IMG/VR virus record: IMGVR_UViG_3300025598_000029
Location: 1-64,000 of that record
DNA: 64,000 bases
Direction: 5' to 3' (one strand)
From: a virus
Shown here one piece after another: positions 3,600-47,775 of this stretch (the first letter of the stretch is position 1; every line of letters begins with the position of its first letter). The notes below the pieces were generated by a model that saw only the letters and a program-made list of their open reading frames with translations, did not search any database and was not told the origin of the DNA. The position numbers and the translations under genes are program-made.

Positions 3600-4097
3600 A
3601 TGGATGAGAACTTGAATGGCTTTAGGGTCGTTGGTGCTGTCGAAGATGACACAAAAGAAAACGACCTAGTACAATCTTTAAAGAATATGCTTGCTGAAGC
3701 ATACGTTCTTTATCACACGATTCACGGTTTTCACTGGAATGTCAAAGGATCTGATTTTTATGAATATCATAAACTATTTGATGAAATAGTTGATGATATT
3801 TACGAACACATTGATCCAATTGCCGAAAACATTGTTAAACTTGGTAGTGTAGCCCCATTTGTAATGAGTCAACTCGTTAAGATGAGTGGTATCCAAGAAT
3901 CTGGTTTAGTAAGTAGATCCCCAAAAGAATTGACTGCTAAGTTTTATATAATGAATGAAGAATATATTCAACACATTAAAGAAACTTTTAAAATAGCTAA
4001 CAACAGTAATGAACAAGGCGTAGCCAATTTTATTGCAGAGCGGATTGATCAACACCAAAAATGGAGTTGGTTCTTGAAAGCTTCTATTGAGGGATAA
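3600..4097 (+). CDS. dps: Dps-like ferritin-superfamily protein with complete ferroxidase site
   Basis: This 165-residue protein has the Dps signature: helix A with FHWNVKG, then H57 in EYHKLFDE, then DPIAEN. The four expected di-iron ligands are present at Dps spacing: H45, H57 (+12), D72 (+15) and E76 (+4). Dps proteins form dodecamers that oxidise Fe(II) with H2O2 and protect DNA. The length is normal for the family. The N-terminal 22 residues are an acidic extension rather than the Lys-rich DNA-binding tail of E. coli Dps, so DNA binding is doubtful while iron and peroxide chemistry is likely. It could protect phage DNA or be packaged. The stop overlaps the next ATG. Confidence 0.88.
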   Translation: MDENLNGFRVVGAVEDDTKENDLVQSLKNMLAEAYVLYHTIHGFHWNVKGSDFYEYHKLFDEIVDDIYEHIDPIAENIVKLGSVAPFVMSQLVKMSGIQESGLVSRSPKELTAKFYIMNEEYIQHIKETFKIANNSNEQGVANFIAERIDQHQKWSWFLKASIEG

Positions 4098-8652: not shown

Positions 8653-9537
8653 ATGATGGAACAAAAATTAGATACAACTAATGTTCTACCATTAAAAATT
8701 GTACATAGCCTTACAAATATAAACTATGATGATGCATCATTATACAGTGATTTGCCTAAATCAAAATTTATTAGTTTTGAACACTTTGAAGAATTTGAAG
8801 AATTGGAAACAATTAAACAATTGGGAACGATCCAACCTTTGCCTTCAACACCTTTAAAAAAAGAAGAGTTAAATTCTTATAATTATAGATCAGAAGAGTT
8901 TATTAGTGATCATAACGGTAAACATGTATTGTTTGTAGGTGATTCTAATACATGGGGTACTGGTTTGCTATATGAAGAACAATGGTCAAGAAAACTATAT
9001 AAATTAATTGCAAACAATGAAAAAGTATCAGGTTATTTTAATATAGCATGTGTTGCTTCATCCATGCTGCATTCGATAGTAACATCATTTAAATATTTTA
9101 AACAGTTTGGCAATCCTGATTATATATTTTTAAATATTGCTAAATTAAATGCATCATATGCTTATGATGAAAAAATAGGTAAGGTTATAGATGCTTGGTA
9201 TGGTAGCCACCCAGTTATGGATCTATTGGCATACCAATATTATTTTATGTTAAACCAATATTGTGAAAGTAACAATATAAAATTATTGTCATTTACAGGG
9301 TACAATGTAGAATCGGCAATGAAGAGAGCATTATCTGATTCCAGGATTGATCAATTTAAAACATTCTATAATTTTGATGAAGATGAAATAGAGAGTTTTA
9401 TCAAAGAATATAAAGACAATAACAAAAATTTAGAAGAAGCCAAATATTTTGATAAAGCAAGAGATGGAGATCATGATGGTATTGCTTATCAAGCATATTG
9501 GGCAGAATTCATGTATAAAAAATATTTAGAATTATGA
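8653..9537 (+). CDS. SGNH/GDSL-type hydrolase
   Basis: A 294-residue protein whose first 85 residues are a charged lead with no clear fold. From 91 on, VLFVGDSNTWGTG gives block I with nucleophile S98. PDYIFLNIAKLNAS is where the G-x-N-D block normally sits, here degenerate. D271-G-D-H274 is the D-x-x-H block V. Members remove acyl groups from carbohydrates or lipids, so de-acetylation of a surface glycan is a reasonable guess. Codons are very AT-rich compared with the head genes, as in the rest of this cassette. The first ATG is taken; a second ATG follows immediately. Confidence 0.72.
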   Translation: MMEQKLDTTNVLPLKIVHSLTNINYDDASLYSDLPKSKFISFEHFEEFEELETIKQLGTIQPLPSTPLKKEELNSYNYRSEEFISDHNGKHVLFVGDSNTWGTGLLYEEQWSRKLYKLIANNEKVSGYFNIACVASSMLHSIVTSFKYFKQFGNPDYIFLNIAKLNASYAYDEKIGKVIDAWYGSHPVMDLLAYQYYFMLNQYCESNNIKLLSFTGYNVESAMKRALSDSRIDQFKTFYNFDEDEIESFIKEYKDNNKNLEEAKYFDKARDGDHDGIAYQAYWAEFMYKKYLEL

Positions 9538-9543
9538 TTACAT

Positions 9544-9615
9544 TCCCTGGTAGCTCAACGGCAGAGCAAGCGACTGTTAATCGCTAGGTTATAGGTTCGA
9601 ATCCTATCTGGGGAG
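9544..9615 (+). tRNA. tRNA-Asn (GTT)
   Basis: Acceptor TCCCTGG (9544-9550) pairs with CTGGGGA (9608-9614, with two G-T wobbles). Discriminator G9615 is followed by CTT, so CCA is not encoded. The anticodon stem AGCGA/TCGCT encloses loop CTGTTAA with anticodon GTT. The T-arm contains AGGTTCGAATCCT. It starts six bases after the SGNH gene's stop and ends three bases before the next ATG. Confidence 0.95.
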
Positions 9616-9618
9616 CTT

Positions 9619-10179
9619 ATGAAATTAATAGAAATAATAGAAAACAATCCAGGTATTCTTTGGAATAATAACCCGTCATCTGGCACTGATAAGCATGGTG
9701 CTCATGACTACATCAATGGCTTCTATGACAAAGCATTTGAACCATTTAAAGATAAAGAAATAAATTTACTTGAAATAGGTATTCAATACGGGTCTTCACT
9801 GGCTCTTTGGAGGCAATATTTTAGTAAAGCTAATATTTATGGCATTGATGTAGTTGATAATAGACAACAACCATATGTAGATCTTCCTGGCATTAATTAT
9901 ATTTTTGATAATGCTTATTCTGAATTAAATTTGCCAAACTTTGATATTGTCATCGATGATGGTCCACATACATTAGAAAGCATGCTTGATTGCATACGTA
10001 TTTACTTGCCAAAAGTAAATGAAGGTGGTATCTTTGTCATTGAAGACGTGCAAGATGTGTCTTGGTTCACTAATTTGACGAATGCTGTTCCTGAAGAATA
10101 TAAGGATAGGATTGAATACTTAGATCTTAGAGCAACCTACAATAGGTACGATGATCTGATGTTCATAATCAAAAAATGA
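9619..10179 (+). CDS. Class I SAM-dependent methyltransferase, macrocin-type
   Basis: A 186-residue protein. Residues 50-60 (LLEIGIQYGSS) form the SAM-binding loop, GIDVVDN the acidic end of strand 2, and FDIVIDDGPHT the catalytic or metal-binding Asp pair seen in TylF/MycE-like sugar O-methyltransferases. Such enzymes methylate sugars on natural products or surface glycans. The only SD-like sequence (GGGGAG, 9610-9615) lies in the 3' acceptor strand of tRNA-Asn, which is unusual. The ATGA overlap with the next gene suggests coupling to the dioxygenase. Confidence 0.78.
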   Translation: MKLIEIIENNPGILWNNNPSSGTDKHGAHDYINGFYDKAFEPFKDKEINLLEIGIQYGSSLALWRQYFSKANIYGIDVVDNRQQPYVDLPGINYIFDNAYSELNLPNFDIVIDDGPHTLESMLDCIRIYLPKVNEGGIFVIEDVQDVSWFTNLTNAVPEEYKDRIEYLDLRATYNRYDDLMFIIKK

Positions 10180-10979
10180 CTTTATACGAAAAATATGTAA
10201 GCCAAATCGTAAATAGGCTTAGTAAATTTAATCATGACTACGATTGGGATAAAAACCCATTTGGTCATATTGTTGTCAACAATTTTTTACAAGAAAATGA
10301 AGCCAATGCTTTGTATGAGGAAGTACTAAAGGCTCAAGAAGATGAAACAAACTGGAATCAATACAACAATCCACTTGAAAAGAAGTTTTCTCTTAGTCGT
10401 TGGGACCAGTTACCTAAGAATGTTTATACTTTCCTTCTAGCTTTAGCTGACACAAAAGTTGTCAAGATGATTGAAGATATAACTGGTGTTTATGAACTTG
10501 TTCCCGATACTGGCTTGCATGGTGGTGGCATTCACATGCACCGTAATGGTGGTAAACTTAATCTTCACCAAGACTACAGCATTCATCCTAAACTTGGATT
10601 ACAAAGAAGATTAAATGTTATCTTTTATTTAGGTAAAGAATGGGACCCAATGTGGGGTGGTGGCCTTGAGTTCCATGAGCATAATCCAGAAACTAATAGA
10701 CCTAAACATCTTGCAAAAGTAGTTGATTACACATGGAACCGTATGGTGTTGTTTGATACAATTGAAAGTTGGCATGGTTTCCCCAATCCAATTACTCCAC
10801 CAGATGATAAATATCGTTTATCACTAGCATTCTATTACACTTCTGAACCATTGGAAGATCACTCTAATAAGCAAGCTGTTCTGTACGCGCCTAGCGATGA
10901 ACAAATTGGTGATCCAGAAATTGAAAAGCTTATTGAATTACGTTCAAACCCAGATACTGCTAAAAGGTTATATAAATAA
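10176..10979 (+). CDS. 2OG-Fe(II) oxygenase (prolyl-4-hydroxylase type)
   Basis: A 267-residue protein with a double-stranded beta-helix signature. LNLHQDYS provides H131-x-D133, ESWHGFPNP provides H200, and KYRLSLAFYY provides R214 for 2-oxoglutarate; the spacing is typical. WGGGLEFHEH gives the usual Gly-rich turn. The family hydroxylates peptide prolines, sugars or small molecules. Here it sits between two SAM methyltransferases and a GT-A-like gene, so a glycan or tail-peptide substrate is plausible. The C-terminal 45 residues are a charged helical extension. Confidence 0.85.
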   Translation: MTLYEKYVSQIVNRLSKFNHDYDWDKNPFGHIVVNNFLQENEANALYEEVLKAQEDETNWNQYNNPLEKKFSLSRWDQLPKNVYTFLLALADTKVVKMIEDITGVYELVPDTGLHGGGIHMHRNGGKLNLHQDYSIHPKLGLQRRLNVIFYLGKEWDPMWGGGLEFHEHNPETNRPKHLAKVVDYTWNRMVLFDTIESWHGFPNPITPPDDKYRLSLAFYYTSEPLEDHSNKQAVLYAPSDEQIGDPEIEKLIELRSNPDTAKRLYK

Positions 10980-11677
10980 TGAAATTTCACGTTTTCTATA
11001 CAGATAATATGCCTCATGATCAATGGGGGTATAAAATGATCAATGACCAAAAGTCAGTATTTGATCACTTTGGTTTAGAGATCGAATACATAGTGAAACC
11101 TTACGTTAATTTTACTCAAGCTGGAGATGACCATGGCAAAATGGTCACTGATGTTATTAAAGACTCAGAAGGCGTTATCTGTTTTATGGATCTCGATTGT
11201 TTACCTCATGACATAGAAAAGTTGCAAGAAATCTATAACTGGGTAGAAGAAAATAAAAGTTTTGCGGGTAATGCTCAAAATATCTCACATATACCAGAGA
11301 TCAAAGATATTATCTTTGCTGCACCAAGTACTTTGATGGTACATAAAGATGCATGGGTAAAGCTTGGTAGTCCAGATATGGCTCAACAACATCGATCATC
11401 AGATGGTGCTGTATGTGTTGATGTAGCACAACAATTAACTTTGAATGCAATTGAACAAGGATTCGATCATAAGATTCTTCACCCAGAAGGTTGCGATATG
11501 CCACAGTGGTATACCGATATAAATGGTAAAATTTTTACTCTTGGCATTGGTACGGCTTACCCAGCATCTTGGCATTATTTCCAAGGATCTATAAATCTAT
11601 CGCAAAGCGATTTGTGGGATCAAAGAGTTAGTGGTATTCTAAATAATGAAAAGCTAATTCCAGCAGTAGAATTCTAA
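10979..11677 (+). CDS. Glycosyltransferase-A-like protein
   Basis: A 232-residue protein with VICFMDLDCLPHD near residues 60-72, a D-x-D metal and nucleotide-sugar site in a GT-A-like context (hydrophobic strand then DLDC). AAPSTLMVHKDAWVKLG and HPEGCDMPQWY resemble the acceptor side of GT-A folds. The identification is by fold logic rather than a confident family match. The start overlaps the previous stop. It is grouped with methyltransferases and an oxygenase, which supports sugar work. Confidence 0.5.
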   Translation: MKFHVFYTDNMPHDQWGYKMINDQKSVFDHFGLEIEYIVKPYVNFTQAGDDHGKMVTDVIKDSEGVICFMDLDCLPHDIEKLQEIYNWVEENKSFAGNAQNISHIPEIKDIIFAAPSTLMVHKDAWVKLGSPDMAQQHRSSDGAVCVDVAQQLTLNAIEQGFDHKILHPEGCDMPQWYTDINGKIFTLGIGTAYPASWHYFQGSINLSQSDLWDQRVSGILNNEKLIPAVEF

Positions 11678-11685
11678 GGTAAGTA

Positions 11686-12303
11686 ATGAAAATTGTACAA
11701 TTAGGTGCTAATAGAGGTTCAGATTCTTTATTCAGATACTTAGAAGATCATAAGAGTGAAATAGAGCTTTTAGTTTTAGTAGAACCATTCCAACTGCATT
11801 TAGATATATTAGAAGCATGTTATAAAGATTATGATAGCGCAATTATTGAAAATGTAGCAGTGAGGCCAACTTTTATAAAAAAAGAAGAATTAACTATTTT
11901 TTATTATAAAGAAGATGGACCAGCATACCATGTAGCTTCAATCAACCCTTCACATATTTACAAACATTATGGGAATGTTCAGTTAGATAGCTTTACTATC
12001 CCATCTTTGACTATTGGACAAATATTAGATAAGCATGGTTTAAAAGAACTTGACTGGTTGCTCGTAGATGTTGAGGGGTTGGATGCAGAGCTTATTTTAG
12101 ACTTTGATTGGAATTCTTACCGTATTAAACGTGTTGACGTAGAACACTTGCATCTGGGCAATGATTCATGGAAAGTTATGGAACTCTTTGAGTCTTTGGG
12201 TTATACTAAAATAGAATCAACTAATACTTTTGACTGGGCTTTTGAACTGCCGGGCAATACCATCAAGACTACGGAAGAAGACGGCCACACAGCACAAAGA
12301 TAA
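11686..12303 (+). CDS. FkbM-family methyltransferase
   Basis: A 205-residue protein starting IVQLGANRGSDSL (SAM loop at about 5-12), then VLVEPF (acidic end of strand 2), then TIGQILDKHGLKELDWLLVDVEGLD, the distinctive FkbM C-terminal block. FkbM enzymes O-methylate hydroxyls in polyketides and surface glycans. SD AAGGTAAGT precedes the ATG. It closes the AT-rich cassette, immediately before a tRNA pair. Confidence 0.82.
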   Translation: MKIVQLGANRGSDSLFRYLEDHKSEIELLVLVEPFQLHLDILEACYKDYDSAIIENVAVRPTFIKKEELTIFYYKEDGPAYHVASINPSHIYKHYGNVQLDSFTIPSLTIGQILDKHGLKELDWLLVDVEGLDAELILDFDWNSYRIKRVDVEHLHLGNDSWKVMELFESLGYTKIESTNTFDWAFELPGNTIKTTEEDGHTAQR

Positions 12304-38843: not shown

Positions 38844-39971
38844 ATGCCATTATTCTCATCGTTAAGTGACCTTGCCGCTCGTGCTTATGGACTCCTATCA
38901 GGATCTTTAGCACCTATTAGCGACCTGTTTGCAAGAACAACATCAGGATCATTAGGAACAGCAACATCAGGACAACTTTGGGTTGCACAAACTGGTGTAT
39001 GGTATGCAACGAGCGGATCAGCTACCACATCAACAGCAGCTAGTTCTTACCCATTAGCTACAATACCTTACAAAGCTAGTGCAACAATGACGTTGAAGAG
39101 TGCTTCAAACGGTACTGGAATTGCTTTTTGGTGGACAAGTACTGGTAACTGGTGGGCAGTTGTTAACAATGCTTACTCACAAAATAACATAACAAGCTAT
39201 ACCTGTACTGGTGGATATCCTTGCACAGGTTATACATGCGCAGGCTATGGACCAGTGTGTCAAAGCTATTACACTGTTTGTACAGGTTATGGTTACAGCA
39301 GTGCTTATGGTGATCCAAATGCTAAGGGAGCAACTACAACGTTGCCTAAGCGAAAGCGTCGTACAAAAGAAGATTCACCAAATACTCGACCCATTGATGT
39401 TCCAAAGCCGCAAAACCTTAGTTACGCACCAATTCCACCACCATTCTTCCCACCCTTCTTTCCGCCTTTCTTCCCACCCTTTTTCCCACCATTCTTTCCA
39501 CCTTTCTTTCCTCCATTCTTTCCACCGTTCTTTCCTCCGTTCTTTCCACCGTATTTCCCACCGTGCATAAGTTATGGATTAGCTTGTGGAGGATACGCTA
39601 CAGGATGTACATCATATTCTTGCTCTTCTTATGGTGCTTGCGCTGGATACACAGCCAACTACACAACACAGTACTATAACCAGCTAAGCTTGCTACAATC
39701 TGTAGGTGGTACAATCACTACAATTGCAACAGGAGTTCTACAAGGGCCTTCAAATAGCACAACAGCTCAGATTAACTCTATCCAAATCGTTACCACTAAT
39801 AGCAACATTACAGCAACTGCCTTTAGTGATTCTGCATTGGTAACATCTCTGGGAACTTTGTCTAGCAATCAGACTGCTCCAACTGGTAATGTTAGTGTTG
39901 GTATTATTGATTCACCGGTTGGCGGAAGTGCCACCCAAGGTAGTACTGTAGGACCATTTACAGCGTTATAA
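38844..39971 (+). CDS. Protein with FFPP repeat flanked by Cys-Tyr-Gly modules
   Basis: A 375-residue protein. The N-terminal part (about 45-120) has a lectin-like beta segment with GTGIAFWWTSTGNWWAVV, common in phage tail proteins. Residues 129-152 carry five Cys in a Y/T-C-x-G-Y rhythm. Residues 200-240 are nine FFPP tetrapeptides plus YFPP. Immediately after, five more Cys with the same spacing style appear. The C-terminus is a beta domain. The symmetric Cys blocks suggest disulfide or metal-bound rungs around a rigid Pro rod. No known domain matches the repeat. Confidence 0.7.
   Translation: MPLFSSLSDLAARAYGLLSGSLAPISDLFARTTSGSLGTATSGQLWVAQTGVWYATSGSATTSTAASSYPLATIPYKASATMTLKSASNGTGIAFWWTSTGNWWAVVNNAYSQNNITSYTCTGGYPCTGYTCAGYGPVCQSYYTVCTGYGYSSAYGDPNAKGATTTLPKRKRRTKEDSPNTRPIDVPKPQNLSYAPIPPPFFPPFFPPFFPPFFPPFFPPFFPPFFPPFFPPFFPPYFPPCISYGLACGGYATGCTSYSCSSYGACAGYTANYTTQYYNQLSLLQSVGGTITTIATGVLQGPSNSTTAQINSIQIVTTNSNITATAFSDSALVTSLGTLSSNQTAPTGNVSVGIIDSPVGGSATQGSTVGPFTAL
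39441..39563 (+). repeat. Ten 12-bp CCA/TTC repeats coding FFPP
   Basis: Units of 12 bases (CC-N-CC-N-TTC-TT/C) code for FFPP nine times and YFPP once. Wobble positions differ between units (cca/ccc/ccg/cct, ttc/ttt) so the array is old enough to have drifted, or selected at protein level, not a sequencing error. Pyrimidine-rich on this strand. Confidence 0.9.
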
Positions 39972-39987
39972 TTAATAGAAAGAGACC

Positions 39988-40227
39988 ATGACAAACAAAG
40001 AAGAAAACCTAAATAATACGCCTCCTATGTATCGGATTGCTTTTATTCTTGATGGTTTTGTACAAGAAGTAATTGAATGCTCAGAGAGATTTGCAGCTTT
40101 ATTACTAAGTAAGCCAATAGCAAGAAACATAACAGGACTTGACATACCGGTAGGATTTCAGTATGATGTAGCTACCGATACTTTCACTGATTTTGATGGT
40201 GAAAGCCTAGAAAATAATAGGAGTTAA
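39988..40227 (+). CDS. Small protein, paralogue of the next gene
   Basis: A 79-residue protein. The segment YRIAFILDGFVQEVIECSERFAA aligns with RLAFILDGQVVHVQSCSARNAA of the next protein. The shared core (strand, turn, strand, helix with one Cys) is a small alpha/beta domain. SD AAAGAGACC. Function unknown; fibre-assembly or coat-accessory roles are possible since it follows the fibre genes. Confidence 0.6.
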   Translation: MTNKEENLNNTPPMYRIAFILDGFVQEVIECSERFAALLLSKPIARNITGLDIPVGFQYDVATDTFTDFDGESLENNRS

Positions 40228-40228
40228 T

Positions 40229-40462
40229 ATGGCAATTCCAATCCCAGAAGATCCAATGATAGCTATCAATACTACTAACCGTTTGGCATTTATCCTTGAT
40301 GGTCAAGTAGTTCATGTTCAAAGTTGCAGTGCTAGAAATGCAGCAATTATGACAAGCCAACCAATAGTAATTGATATTACAGATCATGAACGCGGCGCTT
40401 TTATCCAAGTTGGTCTTGGTTACGATGAAGAAGCCGGTGAATTTGCGAGTGAATACCGTTAA
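40229..40462 (+). CDS. Small protein, paralogue of the previous gene
   Basis: A 77-residue protein, the second copy of the duplicated small-domain pair. It shares LAFILDG and the following C-S-x-R-x-A-A with the upstream 79-residue protein. It has an acidic C-terminus ending EFASEYR. The start is two bases after the upstream stop. Function unknown. Confidence 0.6.
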   Translation: MAIPIPEDPMIAINTTNRLAFILDGQVVHVQSCSARNAAIMTSQPIVIDITDHERGAFIQVGLGYDEEAGEFASEYR

Positions 40463-40464
40463 AA

Positions 40465-40785
40465 ATGAACGGACAACCAAAGCAAACGCCTTGGGAATTA
40501 TATTTAGAAAATCTAAAGAATACTTCCGAAGAAACATCTGAACAACGCCCAGCTAGACCATGGGATCTATTCAATAAAAAAATTGGTAGAGTAGAAGACG
40601 AATTAGCTAGTGAACGCCTTGCAATTTGCAAAGATTGTCCACGCATTCGTAAGTCATCCATGCTATGTAAAGAATGTGGTTGCTTTATGCCTGGAAAAGT
40701 AAAATTACCTAATGCATTCTGTCCAATAGGTAAATGGCAAGCCGTTGAACAAGAACTAGAGGTTAATGAGGAAGACGAAGAGTAA
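40465..40785 (+). CDS. Zinc-binding protein with CPxxxxxxxxCKxCGC motif
   Basis: A 106-residue protein with ICKDCPRIRKSSMLCKECGCFMPGKVKLPNAFCPIGKW as its core (written here in two parts for length: C-x2-C-P, then C-K-E-C-G-C and C-P-I-G-K-W). This arrangement of about six Cys is known from small marine and freshwater phage proteins of unknown function. The N- and C-termini are acidic. The gene opens the second cassette and its stop overlaps the next ATG. Confidence 0.65.
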   Translation: MNGQPKQTPWELYLENLKNTSEETSEQRPARPWDLFNKKIGRVEDELASERLAICKDCPRIRKSSMLCKECGCFMPGKVKLPNAFCPIGKWQAVEQELEVNEEDEE

Positions 40786-41465
40786 TGTCGCGTCAAATCA
40801 TAAAATACGAAAGTCGTAATGGTTTTATAGATCACATGAGGCCTATGCTTTCCGTTGTACCTGATTGGTACAAAAAAACAAAAAGATGGGTAACTGACGA
40901 AAATGGTCAAGAATGGCCTGGAGTTAAACATTGCATCCCATTCCTTGAAAGCCTTACGCTCGGTTACACCATAGTTCTTGAAGAAAGTGTATATGTTCAA
41001 AGAACAGAAAACGGTGTAATTATACGTTATAATAATCCAAAAGAACCTGTCGTTAACAATAGGCCAAGTGCAGTAACTGATCCATCACCAGTCCCAGAGG
41101 GATATGAAGATGAACATTTTATTTGGTTTGCTAACATAACTGTAAGACCTCCTGATGGTTATTCATTACTTTACACACACCCATTGAATCGTTGGGATCT
41201 ACCATTCTTAACAAGCAGTGCGGTGGTAGACGATTATGTAATGCCCGGTGCTAACATGTCTTTTTTTATTAAAAAAGGTTTTGAAGGTGAAATACCTAAA
41301 GGCACCCCTATAGCTCAAGTGATACCATTTAAAAGAGAAGAATGGGTAGCTAAATCTACAAAAGGTCTTTGGGACATAGCTGATACTACTGTGAAAGCTC
41401 CTATATCTGAGTTGTTGAATGGTCATTATAGAAAAAACTTCTGGAAGAAGAAGGTGTATAAATAA
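40785..41465 (+). CDS. Unknown protein, first of a paralogous pair
   Basis: A 226-residue protein with no recognised family. VVPDWYKKTKRW near the N-terminus, CIPFLESLTLGY, EDEHFIWFAN and HPLNRWDLPF, then IKKGFEGEIPKGTPIAQVIPF and RKNFWKKKVYK are conserved in its neighbour. The repeated HPxNR and GTPIxQxIPFKRE blocks suggest a beta-barrel enzyme or binding protein. Many metal-binding possibilities exist but no clear triad. Confidence 0.6.
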   Translation: MSRQIIKYESRNGFIDHMRPMLSVVPDWYKKTKRWVTDENGQEWPGVKHCIPFLESLTLGYTIVLEESVYVQRTENGVIIRYNNPKEPVVNNRPSAVTDPSPVPEGYEDEHFIWFANITVRPPDGYSLLYTHPLNRWDLPFLTSSAVVDDYVMPGANMSFFIKKGFEGEIPKGTPIAQVIPFKREEWVAKSTKGLWDIADTTVKAPISELLNGHYRKNFWKKKVYK

Positions 41466-42178
41466 TGTTTAAAAAGAATAATAAAAACGTACTTCATTAT
41501 GAAGGCTCCCCAACCGTAGAAAAAAAGGGTATAGGAGCTATGGTTGAAATCGTACCTGATTGGTATAAAAAAACACCAAAGTTTTTAGATAATAAAGATC
41601 CAAATAACAATATGCCTGCTATGGGTCTTAAGATGTGTATACCATTCTTAGATGCTATGACAACTGGATTTTATATGTCTTTGCCACAAGAAGTTTATGT
41701 AGAGCAAACAGAGAATGGACCATCTATCCGTTGCAAACAACAACCAATGCCAATTAGCAATAGACCTCCAATGACTACAGACCCAATGCCATCGCCAGCT
41801 GGTCATGATGAAGAGCATTTTATTTGGCAAACTCAGTATGCTTTCCACCTTCCTGAAGGATATAGTGCAATTCTGACACACCCATTTAATAGGTTTGAAC
41901 TACCATTTATAACATTTACTGGTATTGTAGACGGTGACTTTTTTATGCATGGCGGCAATATACCTTTTAGTATTAAAAAAGGCTTTGAAGGAGTTATCCC
42001 TAAAGGTACTCCAATACTGCAAATTATACCATTCAAAAGAGAAGACTGGGTAGCTAAAAAGAAAAAAGGAGTATGGAAAAGAAGCATGGAAAACCATCCC
42101 GAAAGAAGCTATGATTATCAAGTTGGTTGGTATAGAAAAAATATATGGCGTAAAAAAACTTATAAGGTAGAAAGTTAA
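41465..42178 (+). CDS. Unknown protein, second of a paralogous pair
   Basis: A 237-residue protein sharing IVPDWYKKTPKF, CIPFLDAMTTGF, EEHFIWQTQ, HPFNRFELPF, IKKGFEGVIPKGTPILQIIPF and RKNIWRKKTYK with the upstream protein. The duplicates have diverged but kept every block, so both are probably functional. Lys-rich at the end. Its ATG overlaps the upstream stop, and its stop is followed directly by another small gene. Confidence 0.62.
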   Translation: MFKKNNKNVLHYEGSPTVEKKGIGAMVEIVPDWYKKTPKFLDNKDPNNNMPAMGLKMCIPFLDAMTTGFYMSLPQEVYVEQTENGPSIRCKQQPMPISNRPPMTTDPMPSPAGHDEEHFIWQTQYAFHLPEGYSAILTHPFNRFELPFITFTGIVDGDFFMHGGNIPFSIKKGFEGVIPKGTPILQIIPFKREDWVAKKKKGVWKRSMENHPERSYDYQVGWYRKNIWRKKTYKVES

Positions 42179-42450
42179 TGTTTAAGAAAAACAAAATATA
42201 TAATGAAAAGCGTCGTTGGAAAACAATGGTAATCCCTAAGAACGATGAGAACCAAACAAGGTACCTTCGTTTTACGGAATCACGCACTGCAACAAGACTG
42301 TTCATAGAAAAAGACAAGAATTACAAATTTTATGTTGTCTCTAGAGGAACTAACCCAGGTAAAGTAAAAGTAGTCGGAATTGCAACAGACATAAAGAGTG
42401 CTATCACATTATCTAACCTTGAATTGGAAAAAATCAATAAAGGTGAATAA
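42178..42450 (+). CDS. Small basic protein
   Basis: A 90-residue basic protein with a beta pattern (RYLRFTESRTATRLFI, then KFYVVSRGTNPGKVKVVGIA) and a helical end. It could be a small nucleic-acid or protein-binding domain; nothing more specific can be argued. Overlaps the sulfotransferase start (TAATG). Confidence 0.55.
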   Translation: MFKKNKIYNEKRRWKTMVIPKNDENQTRYLRFTESRTATRLFIEKDKNYKFYVVSRGTNPGKVKVVGIATDIKSAITLSNLELEKINKGE

Positions 42451-43154
42451 TGATTTATTCACCTGATAATAACTTTTTATTGTTAAAAAATTATAAAGTT
42501 GGTGGGAGCTCATTAGAAATAGCGTTGACCAATATAGTTCCAGAAAATGCTACTTGCACAGAACTTAAACCTTCAGAGTATGGTCATATGCCAAGAAACC
42601 ATATATATGATAATATTGAACTAGAAAACCATGCTTCATATTATGATATATGTGATATATTCGGTGAAGAAAAAATAAATAATACAATTTCTGTTGTCTT
42701 TGTAAGACACCCATATGAGATTGTAGCTTCATGGTATTTTCATAAAATGAAAGAATATTGGGGAGAAAAAACCAATGATAATGCTGACCCATTTGAATAT
42801 GGTGGCGGTTATGACTGGGATGCGTTATCTCTAAAACAAAAAGATTATTTAAATAAAATGTTTTTCTATGGAAAAGAAACAGATTTTCGTTCTATTAATA
42901 GTACAAAATGGATATATGCACCAAATGGTGAAATACTAGTTGATCATGTTCTACGATATGAGAATGGAATAGAAAACGAAATAAATAAAATTTTACCAAT
43001 GGTTGGGCTGCCAAAGATTACAATACCTTACAAAGCAAAAAGCAAATACAAACCACAACATATTACCTATAAAAATATGTTTGGCAAACAAGAACTTGAA
43101 ACTATACAAAAAGAATGGTCTTGGGAATTTGAAATCTTTGGTTATGAGCCTTAA
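42450..43154 (+). CDS. Sulfotransferase-like protein
   Basis: A 234-residue protein with the PAPS-dependent sulfotransferase layout. The 5'-phosphosulfate loop is K13-N-Y-K-V-G-G-S-S-L-E, and the 3'-phosphate motif is FVRHPYEIVASWY, with R86 and S94 at the usual spacing. It resembles membrane-type carbohydrate sulfotransferases reduced to a soluble core. The donor would be PAPS, made by the APS-kinase-like gene at 45028 in the same cassette. The acceptor is unknown. Confidence 0.75.
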   Translation: MIYSPDNNFLLLKNYKVGGSSLEIALTNIVPENATCTELKPSEYGHMPRNHIYDNIELENHASYYDICDIFGEEKINNTISVVFVRHPYEIVASWYFHKMKEYWGEKTNDNADPFEYGGGYDWDALSLKQKDYLNKMFFYGKETDFRSINSTKWIYAPNGEILVDHVLRYENGIENEINKILPMVGLPKITIPYKAKSKYKPQHITYKNMFGKQELETIQKEWSWEFEIFGYEP

Positions 43155-43730
43155 ATGACACTAACTAAGGTTTGGAGCAAATACAATAATCCATTTAATT
43201 TTATTAACAAAGGCAACGTAGACGTTGGTAAAATTGCGGATTATTTGTTGAGCAAGAATGAAGATAAATACTTTGATGAACGGTTAAATATAATCCACCA
43301 TCAACATGGTAAAATTCTAATAGTGCAAGATTACCCCAGGAATTGGTTCTATCCGGCACCTTTCACGCCAGAATTTGAATGTAAAGATAAAGAACTTTGG
43401 GCATTAACTAAACCAATAATCGATAAATTAGAAAAAGACTGCGATGGTAAAGCAGCTAAAATATTTTATTTCTTATTGCCAGCTGGAACCAATATCTATA
43501 TTCATATGGATCTTGGACAATATTTTAGTGCTGTACATAGACATCAAATACCGATAATAACTAATCCTCAATGTGAAACATGGGTTGATGGCGAAACTAT
43601 AAACATGAAGCCAGGGGAAATCTGGGAGATAAATAATGTTAAACGCCATGCAGTTGATAACAATGGAACAACACCAAGGATTAATTTAGTTGTGGACATA
43701 ATGCCTATGTGGGCTATAGAATCAAAATAG
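43155..43730 (+). CDS. Aspartyl/asparaginyl beta-hydroxylase-type 2OG oxygenase
   Basis: A 191-residue protein with H117-x-D119 (YIHMDLGQ), then RHQIPIITNPQC (Arg binding 2-oxoglutarate), MKPGEIWEINNVKRHAVDN with H165, and RINLVVD at the end. This is the order of the Asp/Asn beta-hydroxylase family. Substrates are Asp/Asn in proteins or related amino-acid residues. It starts one base after the sulfotransferase stop, suggesting joint expression. Confidence 0.82.
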   Translation: MTLTKVWSKYNNPFNFINKGNVDVGKIADYLLSKNEDKYFDERLNIIHHQHGKILIVQDYPRNWFYPAPFTPEFECKDKELWALTKPIIDKLEKDCDGKAAKIFYFLLPAGTNIYIHMDLGQYFSAVHRHQIPIITNPQCETWVDGETINMKPGEIWEINNVKRHAVDNNGTTPRINLVVDIMPMWAIESK

Positions 43731-43740
43731 GAGACAAAAT

Positions 43741-44436
43741 ATGCTTAGAGAACAATTTGAATTGCCTTTAAATCAAAAAGCATATGATGACGGCTTTTAC
43801 GAGTTTCGTGGATTGCAAATAGCCATTGGTGAGGGTGTTTATGCAGAGGCTTATGGAATTGATGTGTTTTTTGAGAACATGTTACTTTTTGTAAAAGAAA
43901 AGATTAATTCATTAGAAGGCCTTACCATAATAGACATGTGTGCTGGATCAGGCATGCTCGGCATAGCAATGGCAATAGAATTCCCCAATTCAGTAATTTA
44001 TGGTGTAGAGAAATATGAAAAGCCATTTTTTTGGACTACAAAGAATGCAGATGGTTTTAAAGAGCAAATAAATAAAAGCAATTCTAAATTCATTCCAGTG
44101 ATGTGTAGTGCTCTTGATTCAATTGATAATCTTAAACATCTTCATGGTCAGGTCGATTTTATTCTTGCAGGTTATCCATGCATACCCATCCCAGATGACC
44201 TTTCAAAAGTGGATACTCTCCCTTACGATCTAACATCAGTAGCTGGTGGCGAAGACGGGTTAGATGTTATAAAAGAAATTTTAACCGCATCATCTATTCT
44301 TCTAAAAAAAGGTGGAATTTTAGTAACAACTACTCCAGTAAGAATGTTTAAACATGTAGAACCATTGCTTGATGACTCAGTGTGGAGCGAAACATTTGAA
44401 TCACCTCTTGAGTTCATGGTTACAGTTAAAAAATAA
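43741..44436 (+). CDS. PrmC/HemK-like methyltransferase lacking the NPPY motif
   Basis: A 231-residue protein with a class I SAM fold: DMCAGSGMLGIAMA (SAM loop), YGVEKYE, then FILAGYPCIPIPDD at the position of NPPY, followed by SVAGGEDGLDVIKEIL typical of PrmC. N5-glutamine methyltransferases need NPPY, so the activity here has probably shifted to another N or O acceptor. Good SD (AGGAGACAAAAT). The family assignment is by motif order only. Confidence 0.68.
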   Translation: MLREQFELPLNQKAYDDGFYEFRGLQIAIGEGVYAEAYGIDVFFENMLLFVKEKINSLEGLTIIDMCAGSGMLGIAMAIEFPNSVIYGVEKYEKPFFWTTKNADGFKEQINKSNSKFIPVMCSALDSIDNLKHLHGQVDFILAGYPCIPIPDDLSKVDTLPYDLTSVAGGEDGLDVIKEILTASSILLKKGGILVTTTPVRMFKHVEPLLDDSVWSETFESPLEFMVTVKK

Positions 44437-44446
44437 AAGGTAAATC

Positions 44447-45028
44447 ATGGATGAAATAAAAAGAGAAATATTAGCACCAGGCATCATAAGCTATAGCAAT
44501 GTAGGAGCAAATATTTCTAATATGGTTCCTGAATGGGAAGAGCATGTTAAAAATGGTTCTTTAAATTGGGCTCCACATTCTTATGTTGGAGAAAACATAA
44601 ATGTTCCAGAAGTTAGAAAAGTAAAGCTTATGGGTATTTCCAATGATGGTATAAACGAAATAATAGATAGTATAAGAGAACATTTTGATAATGCTTATAA
44701 AGCATACGTAGACGATTATTGTGAAAGGTATCGTACCAATACTATTGGATCTGATGCATACCAAATTCTAAAGTATGAAATAGGTCATCATTATAAAGCA
44801 CATACTGATTGGGATCGTGGTGAGTGGTTTGAAAAAAGAACTTTTTCTTTAACACATTATCTTAACGATGATTACGAGGGTGGAGAAATTAATTATGTTG
44901 AATTTGGTTTAAAAATTAAACCAAAGAAGGGGCAATTGATTATTTTCCCTGCACACTTCCCTTATGCACACCAAGTAGAACCAGTTATCAGTGGAGTGCG
45001 CTGGGCAATAACAAAATTCTACCACTAA
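44447..45028 (+). CDS. 2OG-Fe(II) oxygenase (prolyl-hydroxylase type)
   Basis: A 193-residue protein with KAHTDWDRG giving H119-x-D121, LNDDYEGGEINYVEFG, PKKGQLIIFPAHFPYAHQVEPV with H175, and GVRWAITKF with R185. This is a complete facial triad plus 2OG-binding Arg in a typical P4H-type domain. It is the third 2OG oxygenase in the window. The stop overlaps the APS-kinase-like ATG, so the two are probably translationally coupled. Confidence 0.85.
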   Translation: MDEIKREILAPGIISYSNVGANISNMVPEWEEHVKNGSLNWAPHSYVGENINVPEVRKVKLMGISNDGINEIIDSIREHFDNAYKAYVDDYCERYRTNTIGSDAYQILKYEIGHHYKAHTDWDRGEWFEKRTFSLTHYLNDDYEGGEINYVEFGLKIKPKKGQLIIFPAHFPYAHQVEPVISGVRWAITKFYH

Positions 45029-45447
45029 TGATTATCCAGATTATTGGGCTTCCTGGATCAGGTAAGACCGCCCTAGCAAATGGTTTAAAAGAAAAAATAC
45101 CTGTAATTCATTTAAATGCTGATGAGGTTAGGGCAACAATCAATTCAGATCTTGGGTTCTCAAACGATGACAGGGTTGAACAAGCACGCAGGCTTGGTGA
45201 GATGGCAAGACTTTTAGAACGCCAAGGTCATAACATAATTGTGGATTTTGTTTGCCCTACGGAAGAGGCAAGAGAGGCTTTTGGCAAACCAGACATTCTT
45301 ATCTGGATGGACCGTATCAAAAAAAGCCGTTTTGAGGACACCAATACCCTTTGGCAAGACCCAATAAATTACGTTGATTTTATAATCAAAAATGGCTTAA
45401 CCGTTGAACAAGAAGTAGATTGCATCATTAGTAAATACGGCCTTTAG
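45028..45447 (+). CDS. APS kinase-like P-loop protein
   Basis: A 139-residue protein with G7-L-P-G-S-G-K13-T14 (Walker A). HLNADEVRATINSDLGFSNDDRVEQARRLG reads like the APS-kinase core (LDGD-x-VR-x-L-DLGFS-x-DR-EN-x-R-R; here cut into a single 20-residue window DEVRATINSDLGFSNDDRVE), followed by GHNIIVDFVCPT. Shorter than the usual 170-200 residues and with NAD in place of DGD. APS kinase makes PAPS from APS and ATP, the donor for the sulfotransferase 2 kb upstream. Confidence 0.72.
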   Translation: MIIQIIGLPGSGKTALANGLKEKIPVIHLNADEVRATINSDLGFSNDDRVEQARRLGEMARLLERQGHNIIVDFVCPTEEAREAFGKPDILIWMDRIKKSRFEDTNTLWQDPINYVDFIIKNGLTVEQEVDCIISKYGL

Positions 45448-45555: not shown

Positions 45556-47775
45556 ATGGCCAATAAAAAACCCAAGAATAATATTACTAGAGGGTACCGT
45601 TCAACCAATAATAAGGTCATTGAAGGTTGGACTGGTGGTGAGGGTGGACCACACCCGCCAGAATATAGTAGTAATTATAAGACTATTCTATTTAGTTATT
45701 TTGCCACGAACAAAAATGGTAAAGTACCAGAAGGTTGGAGAGGTGGTCAAGGTCCACATGTCCCACCACCTTATGTAGGACCTAAGAGTAGCTTTACTAG
45801 AGCATTCTATTCACCCAATACTGAAGCGTATGAGCTTGGTTGGAGAGGTGGCTATGGATTCCAAAAACACCTTGATTACTTTAAGAATGCCATCGCTTTG
45901 GCCACAATATTGGTTAATAACCAGTCAAAAATCGGTAGAATTAAACAAGCTTCATCTACGTCTACAAATTTAGCAAAAACCTCAAAAAGTTATATCCAAT
46001 TAAGATTTGCCATTGCTCTACAAACCTCAGCAATTGTTACTAGATACATTAAGTCAAAACTTAAATCTGCAATAGTTAATTATGTTGGTGTTATAAAGAA
46101 TAGCAAGCGTTTTACAGGTATTCGTCGTGCTACCGCTAATAGCATTGGTTACGCAAAAGTTACTAAAATCACAAGACATTTTAGAGTTTCTATAGTTAAT
46201 CTTGTAAACTTTGCATTCGAAGGCCGCATCGATCGATTCTTTAGAAAAGCGATTGCTGCCTATACACAATCAGTAATTATTGTCAAACGATCTAGATTCA
46301 CCCGTACTGCTAAGGCATTGCAAACCTATTTAGCAACTAGTTTAAAGCCATTTGATCAATATTACAGAAGTGCGATCGCTACTTCAACCAGACTAGTAAA
46401 TTCTAGTAAAACTTTTAATAGGTTTAGAAAAAGCACTATAACAAGTATAAACATAGCAAATAGCTATAAAACAATCAAACGTATAAAACAAGCATTAGCT
46501 GAATCCACGTTCTTGGTTCGTAATATAAAATCCTACAATAATTTTAAAAGAGCGTTTGCCACCAGAGTTTCGCTTATTACATCTAAAAATTCTAACATTA
46601 GAAGCAAATTAGTTACCGTTACTAGGGTATCTCTTGTAAAGAGTAGCAGGACATATAATGCCAGAGTCCGTGCTATAGCTATCAATATTGTCAAAACTAT
46701 TAAAATTGGTAGGTTTATAAGAACCGGTTCAGCTAATGCTATCAACATAGCAAATTCTTATAGAATTAATGTTCTTTTTAAAAAAGCCATTTCTATGGTT
46801 ATCAACATAGCACGAGATGGAAAGATCGATCGATTCTACCGTTATGCCATAGCTAGAACAACCAATTTGGTTACCACTACTAAACAATCTAGATTTATTA
46901 GAGTAGCTAAATCAACCCAAGTAGGCATTACCATTGCAACAAGAATTGTCGTAGCTAGACGCCTCGCAACAGCTAACCGTGCAATGCTCGTTAAAGTCAG
47001 CAAAAACTATGGCAAGAACATAAAAGTTATATTCACAGGGTTAACCAAAAATAACAAATTATTTAGATTCACAAGAAGAGCAACGGCAGCAGTCATTAAT
47101 CTTGCTACTACCAGGAAATTTTCTAGGTTCATTAGAGTTGCTAAAGTAACTGCAACTAATATTGCATTCGATGGAAAAATTGATCAATTCTATCGTTATG
47201 CGATTGCTAGAACTACAGGGCTTATTAAAACCACTAAATTATCTAGGTTCAATAGGAATGCCAACGCTAATAGAATAAACCTTGCTAGAACCAATAAACG
47301 CCGTGCTACCTATATCAAGACTCTATCCACTAATTTGAGTTTTAATATCAAATCCCATGCATACCGTAAAATTGCCAAGAATATTGTTATATTCATTGGT
47401 AAAGTTGTAAGTGGTGGAAAAGTTACACATAAGAATGCTTCAGTATTGCAGAGCGTATCAGCTACTGTAACCAAGGCAAACAACCGTAAAAAATACGCCA
47501 CTGCCACGGTTAGCTATGAAATTGGTACTACCAAGGGTAGAACTTATCTTAGAAGAGCAATTGCCACAACAGTCGGATTGGTTCGCTATGGACTCAGCCT
47601 AGTAATGAATGTAAGATCTATAGAATCTGCCAAGGTTGAGCCAGTCAACGAGGTCAATTTCTATGTTACACCTAACAACCCAGACGTTGTTGGGGAGTAC
47701 ACATCTGAAAATGACCAGCCTGGTGACTATTCAGAGCCTGTGAATAACCTTGGTGAAGATGTAGTACCTACTTAA
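45556..47775 (+). CDS. Basic protein built of 20-residue repeats
   Basis: A 739-residue, very basic protein. Residues 10-100 have three GW-(T/R)-GG elements (GWTGGEGGPH, GWRGGQGPH, GWRGGYGF). From about 105 to 680 a degenerate 20-residue unit, roughly x-R-F-x-R-x-A-x-A-x-x-x-x-L-V-x-x-x-K-x, repeats some 28 times; KTFNRFRKSTITSINIANSY, KTIKRIKQALAESTFLVRNI and KSYNNFKRAFATRVSLITSK are three neighbouring copies. The rest is an acidic C-terminal tail. A beta-solenoid or extended rod is likely. No family recognised; probably virion, near fibre genes. Confidence 0.68.
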   Translation: MANKKPKNNITRGYRSTNNKVIEGWTGGEGGPHPPEYSSNYKTILFSYFATNKNGKVPEGWRGGQGPHVPPPYVGPKSSFTRAFYSPNTEAYELGWRGGYGFQKHLDYFKNAIALATILVNNQSKIGRIKQASSTSTNLAKTSKSYIQLRFAIALQTSAIVTRYIKSKLKSAIVNYVGVIKNSKRFTGIRRATANSIGYAKVTKITRHFRVSIVNLVNFAFEGRIDRFFRKAIAAYTQSVIIVKRSRFTRTAKALQTYLATSLKPFDQYYRSAIATSTRLVNSSKTFNRFRKSTITSINIANSYKTIKRIKQALAESTFLVRNIKSYNNFKRAFATRVSLITSKNSNIRSKLVTVTRVSLVKSSRTYNARVRAIAINIVKTIKIGRFIRTGSANAINIANSYRINVLFKKAISMVINIARDGKIDRFYRYAIARTTNLVTTTKQSRFIRVAKSTQVGITIATRIVVARRLATANRAMLVKVSKNYGKNIKVIFTGLTKNNKLFRFTRRATAAVINLATTRKFSRFIRVAKVTATNIAFDGKIDQFYRYAIARTTGLIKTTKLSRFNRNANANRINLARTNKRRATYIKTLSTNLSFNIKSHAYRKIAKNIVIFIGKVVSGGKVTHKNASVLQSVSATVTKANNRKKYATATVSYEIGTTKGRTYLRRAIATTVGLVRYGLSLVMNVRSIESAKVEPVNEVNFYVTPNNPDVVGEYTSENDQPGDYSEPVNNLGEDVVPT

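Follow-up and report, generated by a model that had tools for sequence, protein, structure and literature searches.

Analyzing a 64-kb stretch of DNA from a lake-type phage (the window, which comprises the first 64 kb of the 87,043-base IMG/VR record IMGVR_UViG_3300025598_000029), we found that a closely packed run of some ten genes includes those for both a sulfotransferase of 234 amino acids (aa), here called SULF-A, and a 139-aa protein resembling adenosine 5'-phosphosulfate (APS) kinases, here called KIN. We favor, with moderate confidence, the view that this cassette is a phage sulfation module, in which the kinase would turn host APS into 3'-phosphoadenosine 5'-phosphosulfate (PAPS) and the sulfotransferase would use that PAPS. 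The open reading frames (ORFs) lie exactly where a first-pass annotation of the window had placed them, at 42450-43154 and 45028-45447 (plus strand, as for all other features of the run and its two flanks), and its assignment of the two products to these enzyme families was borne out by Pfam scores above the respective cut-offs. Both are genuine, undamaged genes on which purifying selection acts: against the relatives L007 and L008, the ratios of nonsynonymous to synonymous substitution rates (dN/dS) were 0.05-0.06 (kinase) and 0.21-0.23 (sulfotransferase), and hence these ORFs are not chance occurrences.

SULF-A (42450-43154) is probably a divergent PAPS-type sulfotransferase, as judged from its sequence and its predicted fold. 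The protein matched the Sulfotransfer_2 family (PF03567) at 23.8 bits, just passing the cut-off of 22, as well as phrog_3347, which is named 'Galactose-3-O-sulfotransferase' (E 4.5e-6). Upon modeling the protein with AlphaFold2 (pLDDT 91.5), we found that all 50 of the best fold matches in the PDB were PAPS sulfotransferases, while matches among viral folds reached E 2e-7, the best of them being a sulfotransferase-like protein of Ralstonia phage phiRSL1. By sequence, the PDB returned nothing at E 1, a profile gave one non-significant sulfotransferase, and tblastn against 50,697 phage records yielded zero matches. The residues invariant in 29 aligned sequences include K16, S21, H61, R86, and S94. 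By analogy to SULT enzymes, we take K16 to be the phosphosulfate-loop lysine, S21 the loop serine, H61 the catalytic histidine, and R86 and S94 the 3'-phosphate arginine and serine, with the 5'-phosphosulfate loop in the motif KNYKVGGSS (residues 13-21, 42486-42512) and the 3'-phosphate motif in RHPYEIVAS (R86 to S94, 42705-42731). The first-pass annotation had named K13 as the PAPS-loop lysine, for which the invariant K16 is the more likely candidate. Loop lysine, 3'-phosphate arginine and serine, fold, and Pfam family score, the marks by which we recognize a PAPS-dependent sulfotransferase, were all present, and the PAPS-binding pocket presupposed by that annotation finds support in the invariance of the loop and 3'-phosphate residues and in the uniform fold matches. 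SULF-A shares its fold and PAPS motifs with other phage sulfotransferases (phrog_3347; phiRSL1; the cyanophages P-SSM7 and ACG-2014f), but, unlike in the present cassette, no phage donor enzyme is named alongside those in the papers that we found.

The product of 45028-45447 is probably APS-kinase-like, and APS phosphorylation is its predicted activity. It comprises the kinase half only, scored 65.6 bits against APS_kinase (PF01583; cut-off 21.1), and had APS kinases as its best phmmer matches in the PDB (E 1.5e-10). With the APS kinase CysC and the corresponding domain of PAPSS1/2 it has in common the P-loop and the GD/AD..R and DLGFS..DR motifs. Its P-loop GLPGSGKT (residues 7-14, 45046-45069) is invariant in 30 aligned sequences except at S11, and in the APS-kinase signature NADEVR...DLGFSNDDRVEQARR (residues 30-55, 45115-45192), which was recognized in this alignment and in an alignment with PDB proteins, D32, R35, F44 (in DLGF), and R49 are invariant as well. 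In the fungal enzyme, the APS-contacting residues are Asp, Arg, Phe, Arg, and Asn; the C-terminal Lys could not be identified in the window kinase. For L088, a full-length homologue (model pLDDT 86.7), each of the 50 best PDB fold matches was an APS kinase or a PAPS synthetase, with E values starting at 1.2e-9, and none belonged to another kinase family, in line with what the first-pass annotation had anticipated.

Outside viruses, members of the kinase family were found in Alphaproteobacteria such as Bradyrhizobium and Methylocystis, in a Planctomycete and a Sideroxydans, and in Pelagibacteraceae, and their genes lie next to sulfotransferase genes far more often than expected. Counting sulfotransferases by PF13469 or PF00685 and deriving the expectation from uniform placement, we found one within 1 kb of the kinase at 13 of 44 bacterial places, against an expected 0.07 (~190-fold over), and within 5 kb at 19 of the 44 (0.24 expected). 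The known sulfate-activating enzymes of the same genomes (CysC/CysNC hits) showed a similar behavior, being encoded within 5 kb of a sulfotransferase in 5 of 18 cases.

A similar pairing was observed in phages. Relatives of SULF-A were present in 46 IMG/VR contigs, 38 of which also carry the kinase; the eight contigs lacking it are fragments no longer than 22.5 kb, and both genes were found in all 24 SULF-A virus records that measure at least 25 kb, so that the co-occurrence in related phages proposed as a check on the first-pass annotation does exist. Gene order and spacing differ between groups: the sulfotransferase may directly precede the kinase, follow it at once or at a distance of two genes, or lie several genes away. 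For a second subfamily, SULF-B, the kinase was present in 35 of 38 cases, and in L024, which has a short, window-like kinase, there is an overlap between the kinase start and a sulfotransferase of a third type. Pfam detected a PF03567 sulfotransferase in 13 of 35 kinase-bearing records (10 over the cut-off) and PF13469 over its cut-off in none, a count that misses divergent types such as that of L024. Five isolated phages carry a fused form of the kinase at 37-39% identity. The cultured Stenotrophomonas phage DLP6 encodes a fused kinase, AAY80_227, and, ~90 kb away, an annotated sulfotransferase, AAY80_051, that we confirmed at 36.8 bits, and Xanthomonas phage AhaSv has a sulfotransferase-like gene two genes upstream of its fused kinase (19.6 bits, below the cut-off). 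Separately, the 462-kb uncultured phage LR756500.1 encodes a full-type CysC, complete with FTGID loop, at a distance of 21 kb from a sulfotransferase (L304:12795-13337 and L304:34033-34614).

Several observations weigh against reading the cassette as a sulfation module. For the sulfotransferase, even the best PDB fold match is weak (E 4.5e-3). The match of the kinase to PF01583 is confined to profile positions 4-91 of 152 (the first 60%), and its 66.7 bits against TIGR00455 are under the NCBIfam equivalog cut-off of 138.7; at 139 aa, it lacks the FTGID loop and C-terminal lid that make up the last third of a standard APS kinase, and it has Gln52 where APS kinases have the APS-site Asn. Neither an ATP sulfurylase, nor a CysD/PAPS reductase, nor an adenylyltransferase domain was found in the 87-kb record, which thus offers no APS source. 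The first-pass idea that the phage makes its donor entirely alone thus lacks support and, having the kinase half only, the window kinase would need host APS. Furthermore, a neutral bait gene found the kinase in 25 of 30 freshwater-group loci of at least 15 kb, and just 29 of 73 kinase loci had a sulfotransferase within the fetched stretch. As the kinase is near-core in this freshwater phage group, the co-occurrence in phages is partly due to shared lineage, and we therefore rejected phage co-occurrence alone as proof of coupling. Of the 13 close bacterial cases, finally, four are related Bradyrhizobium with identical spacing, while the remaining ones mostly differ in partner or spacing.

The kinase has more than 580 viral relatives, and we examined the domain make-up of the 80 best. 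The majority of these are ~252 aa long, with a second domain of ~115 aa following the kinase domain. This domain, which contains the motifs GRYQPWHEGH, GRDVGY, and ISATxxR, is of the CTP_transf_like type and resembles HIGH-motif adenylyltransferases, with nicotinamide mononucleotide (NMN) adenylyltransferases as its nearest solved relatives (profile E 3.8e-10). GRDVGY and ISATxxR had suggested an ATP sulfurylase, an identification that we do not claim, as the profile search listed NMN and other adenylyltransferases and no ATP sulfurylase. The window kinase ends at the domain boundary, and in one SAR11 genome the kinase and the second domain are encoded by two adjacent genes. In most phages, the gene after the fused kinase encodes a DUF2061 membrane protein of ~67 aa, of which a search of the 87-kb record found none; this combination of fusion and DUF2061 is widespread in aquatic phages (L012, L010, L027, L088, and most kinase loci). 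Alphaproteobacteria carry DUF2061 as the C-terminal part of a fusion with CysN, the large subunit of sulfate adenylyltransferase (L298:369-1952, L299:1322-3277), and this fusion is an independent link of the kinase family to sulfate activation.

We read the kinase family as a compact PAPS-making enzyme that serves sulfotransferases. More tentatively, and as a possibility that we hold at well below even confidence, the 252-aa family could be a minimal complete PAPS synthase whose ~115-aa domain does the ATP sulfurylase step, that is, a portable donor generator for sulfotransferases in aquatic phages and Alphaproteobacteria, of which the window phage would keep the kinase half. The full-length homologues resemble the animal PAPS synthetase PAPSS, composed of APS kinase and ATP sulfurylase, in having the kinase first, a domain of the adenylyltransferase superfamily second, and ties to sulfotransferases; they differ from it in their small second domain (HIGH, GRDVGY, ISATxxR), which resembles NMN adenylyltransferase rather than ATP sulfurylase and which the window copy lacks. 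The rhizobial NodPQ-NodH sulfation module, in which NodPQ is of the CysD/CysN-CysC type, likewise has a PAPS-making enzyme encoded near a sulfotransferase, but the compact enzyme family described here is a different one.

The second domain could also be taken at face value, in which case the kinase family would serve NAD salvage: the P-loop domain would phosphorylate nicotinamide riboside, the long form would have an NMN adenylyltransferase as its C-terminal domain, as in NadR with the domains swapped, and the sulfotransferase neighbors would be incidental. Besides the profile matches, which favor this explanation in including NMN adenylyltransferases and no ATP sulfurylase, it is kept alive by a nicotinamide phosphoribosyltransferase encoded in DLP6 and by a NADAR-domain gene immediately preceding that of the fused kinase of AhaSv (L302:14777-15220). 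We nevertheless consider it unlikely. While the full-length homologues have the HIGH-motif domain in common with NadM/NadR, they differ in their sulfation context and in their kinase domain, which resembles APS kinases in both sequence and fold; the ~190-fold excess of adjacent sulfotransferases in bacteria and the DUF2061/CysN link also argue against NAD salvage, and the window copy is entirely without the adenylyltransferase domain. Viral cysC genes in lake viromes have been read as sulfur assimilation (PMC8066274, PMC9611531), and the window kinase might similarly be an ordinary cysC auxiliary gene for assimilatory sulfate reduction to cysteine, with the sulfotransferase acquired separately; this is very unlikely given that no PAPS reductase/CysD-family gene was found in the 87-kb record and that several sulfotransferase types are repeatedly adjacent in phages and bacteria. 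Improbable to about the same degree is that the kinase acts on another substrate (a nucleotide, sugar, or protein), its truncated C-terminal part having moved the specificity off APS, as the missing C-terminal third, the Asn-to-Gln change, and the bare name 'kinase' of the matched phrog_10255 might suggest, but against which speak the invariance of D32, R35, F44, and R49 and the sulfotransferase association in bacteria.

If the cassette is a sulfation module, then host ATP sulfurylase would supply APS during infection, the 139-aa kinase would phosphorylate it to PAPS, and the 234-aa sulfotransferase would transfer the sulfate from PAPS to an acceptor, which the neighboring 2-oxoglutarate (2OG) hydroxylases and methyltransferase may modify as well. 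As to this acceptor, the fiber or virion target of the first-pass annotation is a guess that the fiber-like neighbors favor only weakly; a virion protein or glycan, a small molecule, and the host surface are all candidates.

The remaining genes of the run are as tightly packed as the first-pass annotation described. Three genes, at 43155-43730, 43741-44436, and 44447-45028, lie between those of the sulfotransferase and the kinase, neighbors overlapping by 1 nt or standing up to 10 nt apart, and upstream the run extends as far as 39988 with junctions just as tight (overlaps of 1 nt, or gaps not exceeding ~10 nt). The two 2OG oxygenases of that annotation were both recovered: the first of the three genes encodes a 191-aa protein like aspartyl/asparaginyl hydroxylases (PF05118, 48.2 bits), relatives of which are frequently encoded immediately before the kinase in other phages, and the third a 193-aa 2OG-Fe(II) oxygenase (PF13640, 63.9 bits; phrog_61). 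The gene between them encodes a 231-aa S-adenosylmethionine-dependent methyltransferase with a likeness to HemK/PrmC; its 58.6 bits fall far short of the TIGR03534 cut-off of 199.1 and, as read from the sequence, it has GYPCIP in place of the NPPY of PrmC/HemK. At the head of the run stand three small genes (39988-40785; 79, 77, and 106 aa, the last DUF6171-like), followed by two adjacent phrog_7084 paralogues (40785-42178; 226 and 237 aa; E 5e-27 and 1e-33) and a 90-aa protein of no known function (42178-42450), whose gene overlaps the sulfotransferase start by 1 nt and which is kept beside the sulfotransferase in relatives. The family phrog_7084, itself without known function, also has members close to the kinase of other phages (L013, L024). 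Both L007 and L008 keep the remaining cassette genes. Promoter and terminator scans gave nothing beyond chance. The run is flanked upstream by a 375-aa probable fiber or appendage protein (38844-39971), so classified from its sequence only, and downstream by a 739-aa repetitive protein without a family match (45556-47775). The former contains a long FFPP tandem repeat (FFPPFFPPFF...).

In other phages, the kinase neighborhood includes a glycosyltransferase and a tryptophan-halogenase-like gene (PF04820, 357 bits), the latter recurring near the kinase in the freshwater phage group (L068:4462-6000 and related loci). A 279-aa luciferase-type monooxygenase look-alike without a Pfam match (L068:1497-2336 and related loci) often lies upstream of the sulfotransferase and kinase. 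Elsewhere in the window, a second decorating cassette (8653-12303) encodes a PF13578 methyltransferase, a 2OG oxygenase, and an FkbM methyltransferase, with flanking tRNA genes, and a ferritin/Dps-like protein is encoded at 3600-4097 (PF00210, 72 bits). The record encodes a tail sheath (phrog_2839) along with a major head protein (phrog_2522), which identify the phage as a myovirus. As the nearest named relatives of the sheath are nearly all actinobacteriophages (~25-27% identity for those listed), an actinobacterial host is plausible.

Earlier papers report either sulfotransferases in phages or cysC in viruses (PMC8290583, PMC10580990, PMC8066274, PMC9611531). Sulfotransferases are encoded by many phages, and their role there was called unclear for OM43 phages (PMC10580990). 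Within the literature covered, which was mostly non-subscription and without preprints, we found no paper linking a phage sulfotransferase with an APS kinase. Because relatives of the kinase stand repeatedly beside sulfotransferases in phages and bacteria, some viruses probably carry out sulfation reactions of their own. While cysC in viromes is usually taken as a sign of sulfur assimilation, the recurrent pairing would recast cysC plus sulfotransferase as a sulfation system, and it would explain where phages obtain the PAPS for their sulfotransferases. Should the fused form be a complete PAPS synthase, it would represent a new, very small enzyme type. The sulfated acceptor, in turn, would become directly testable in the cultured phage DLP6, which has both genes.

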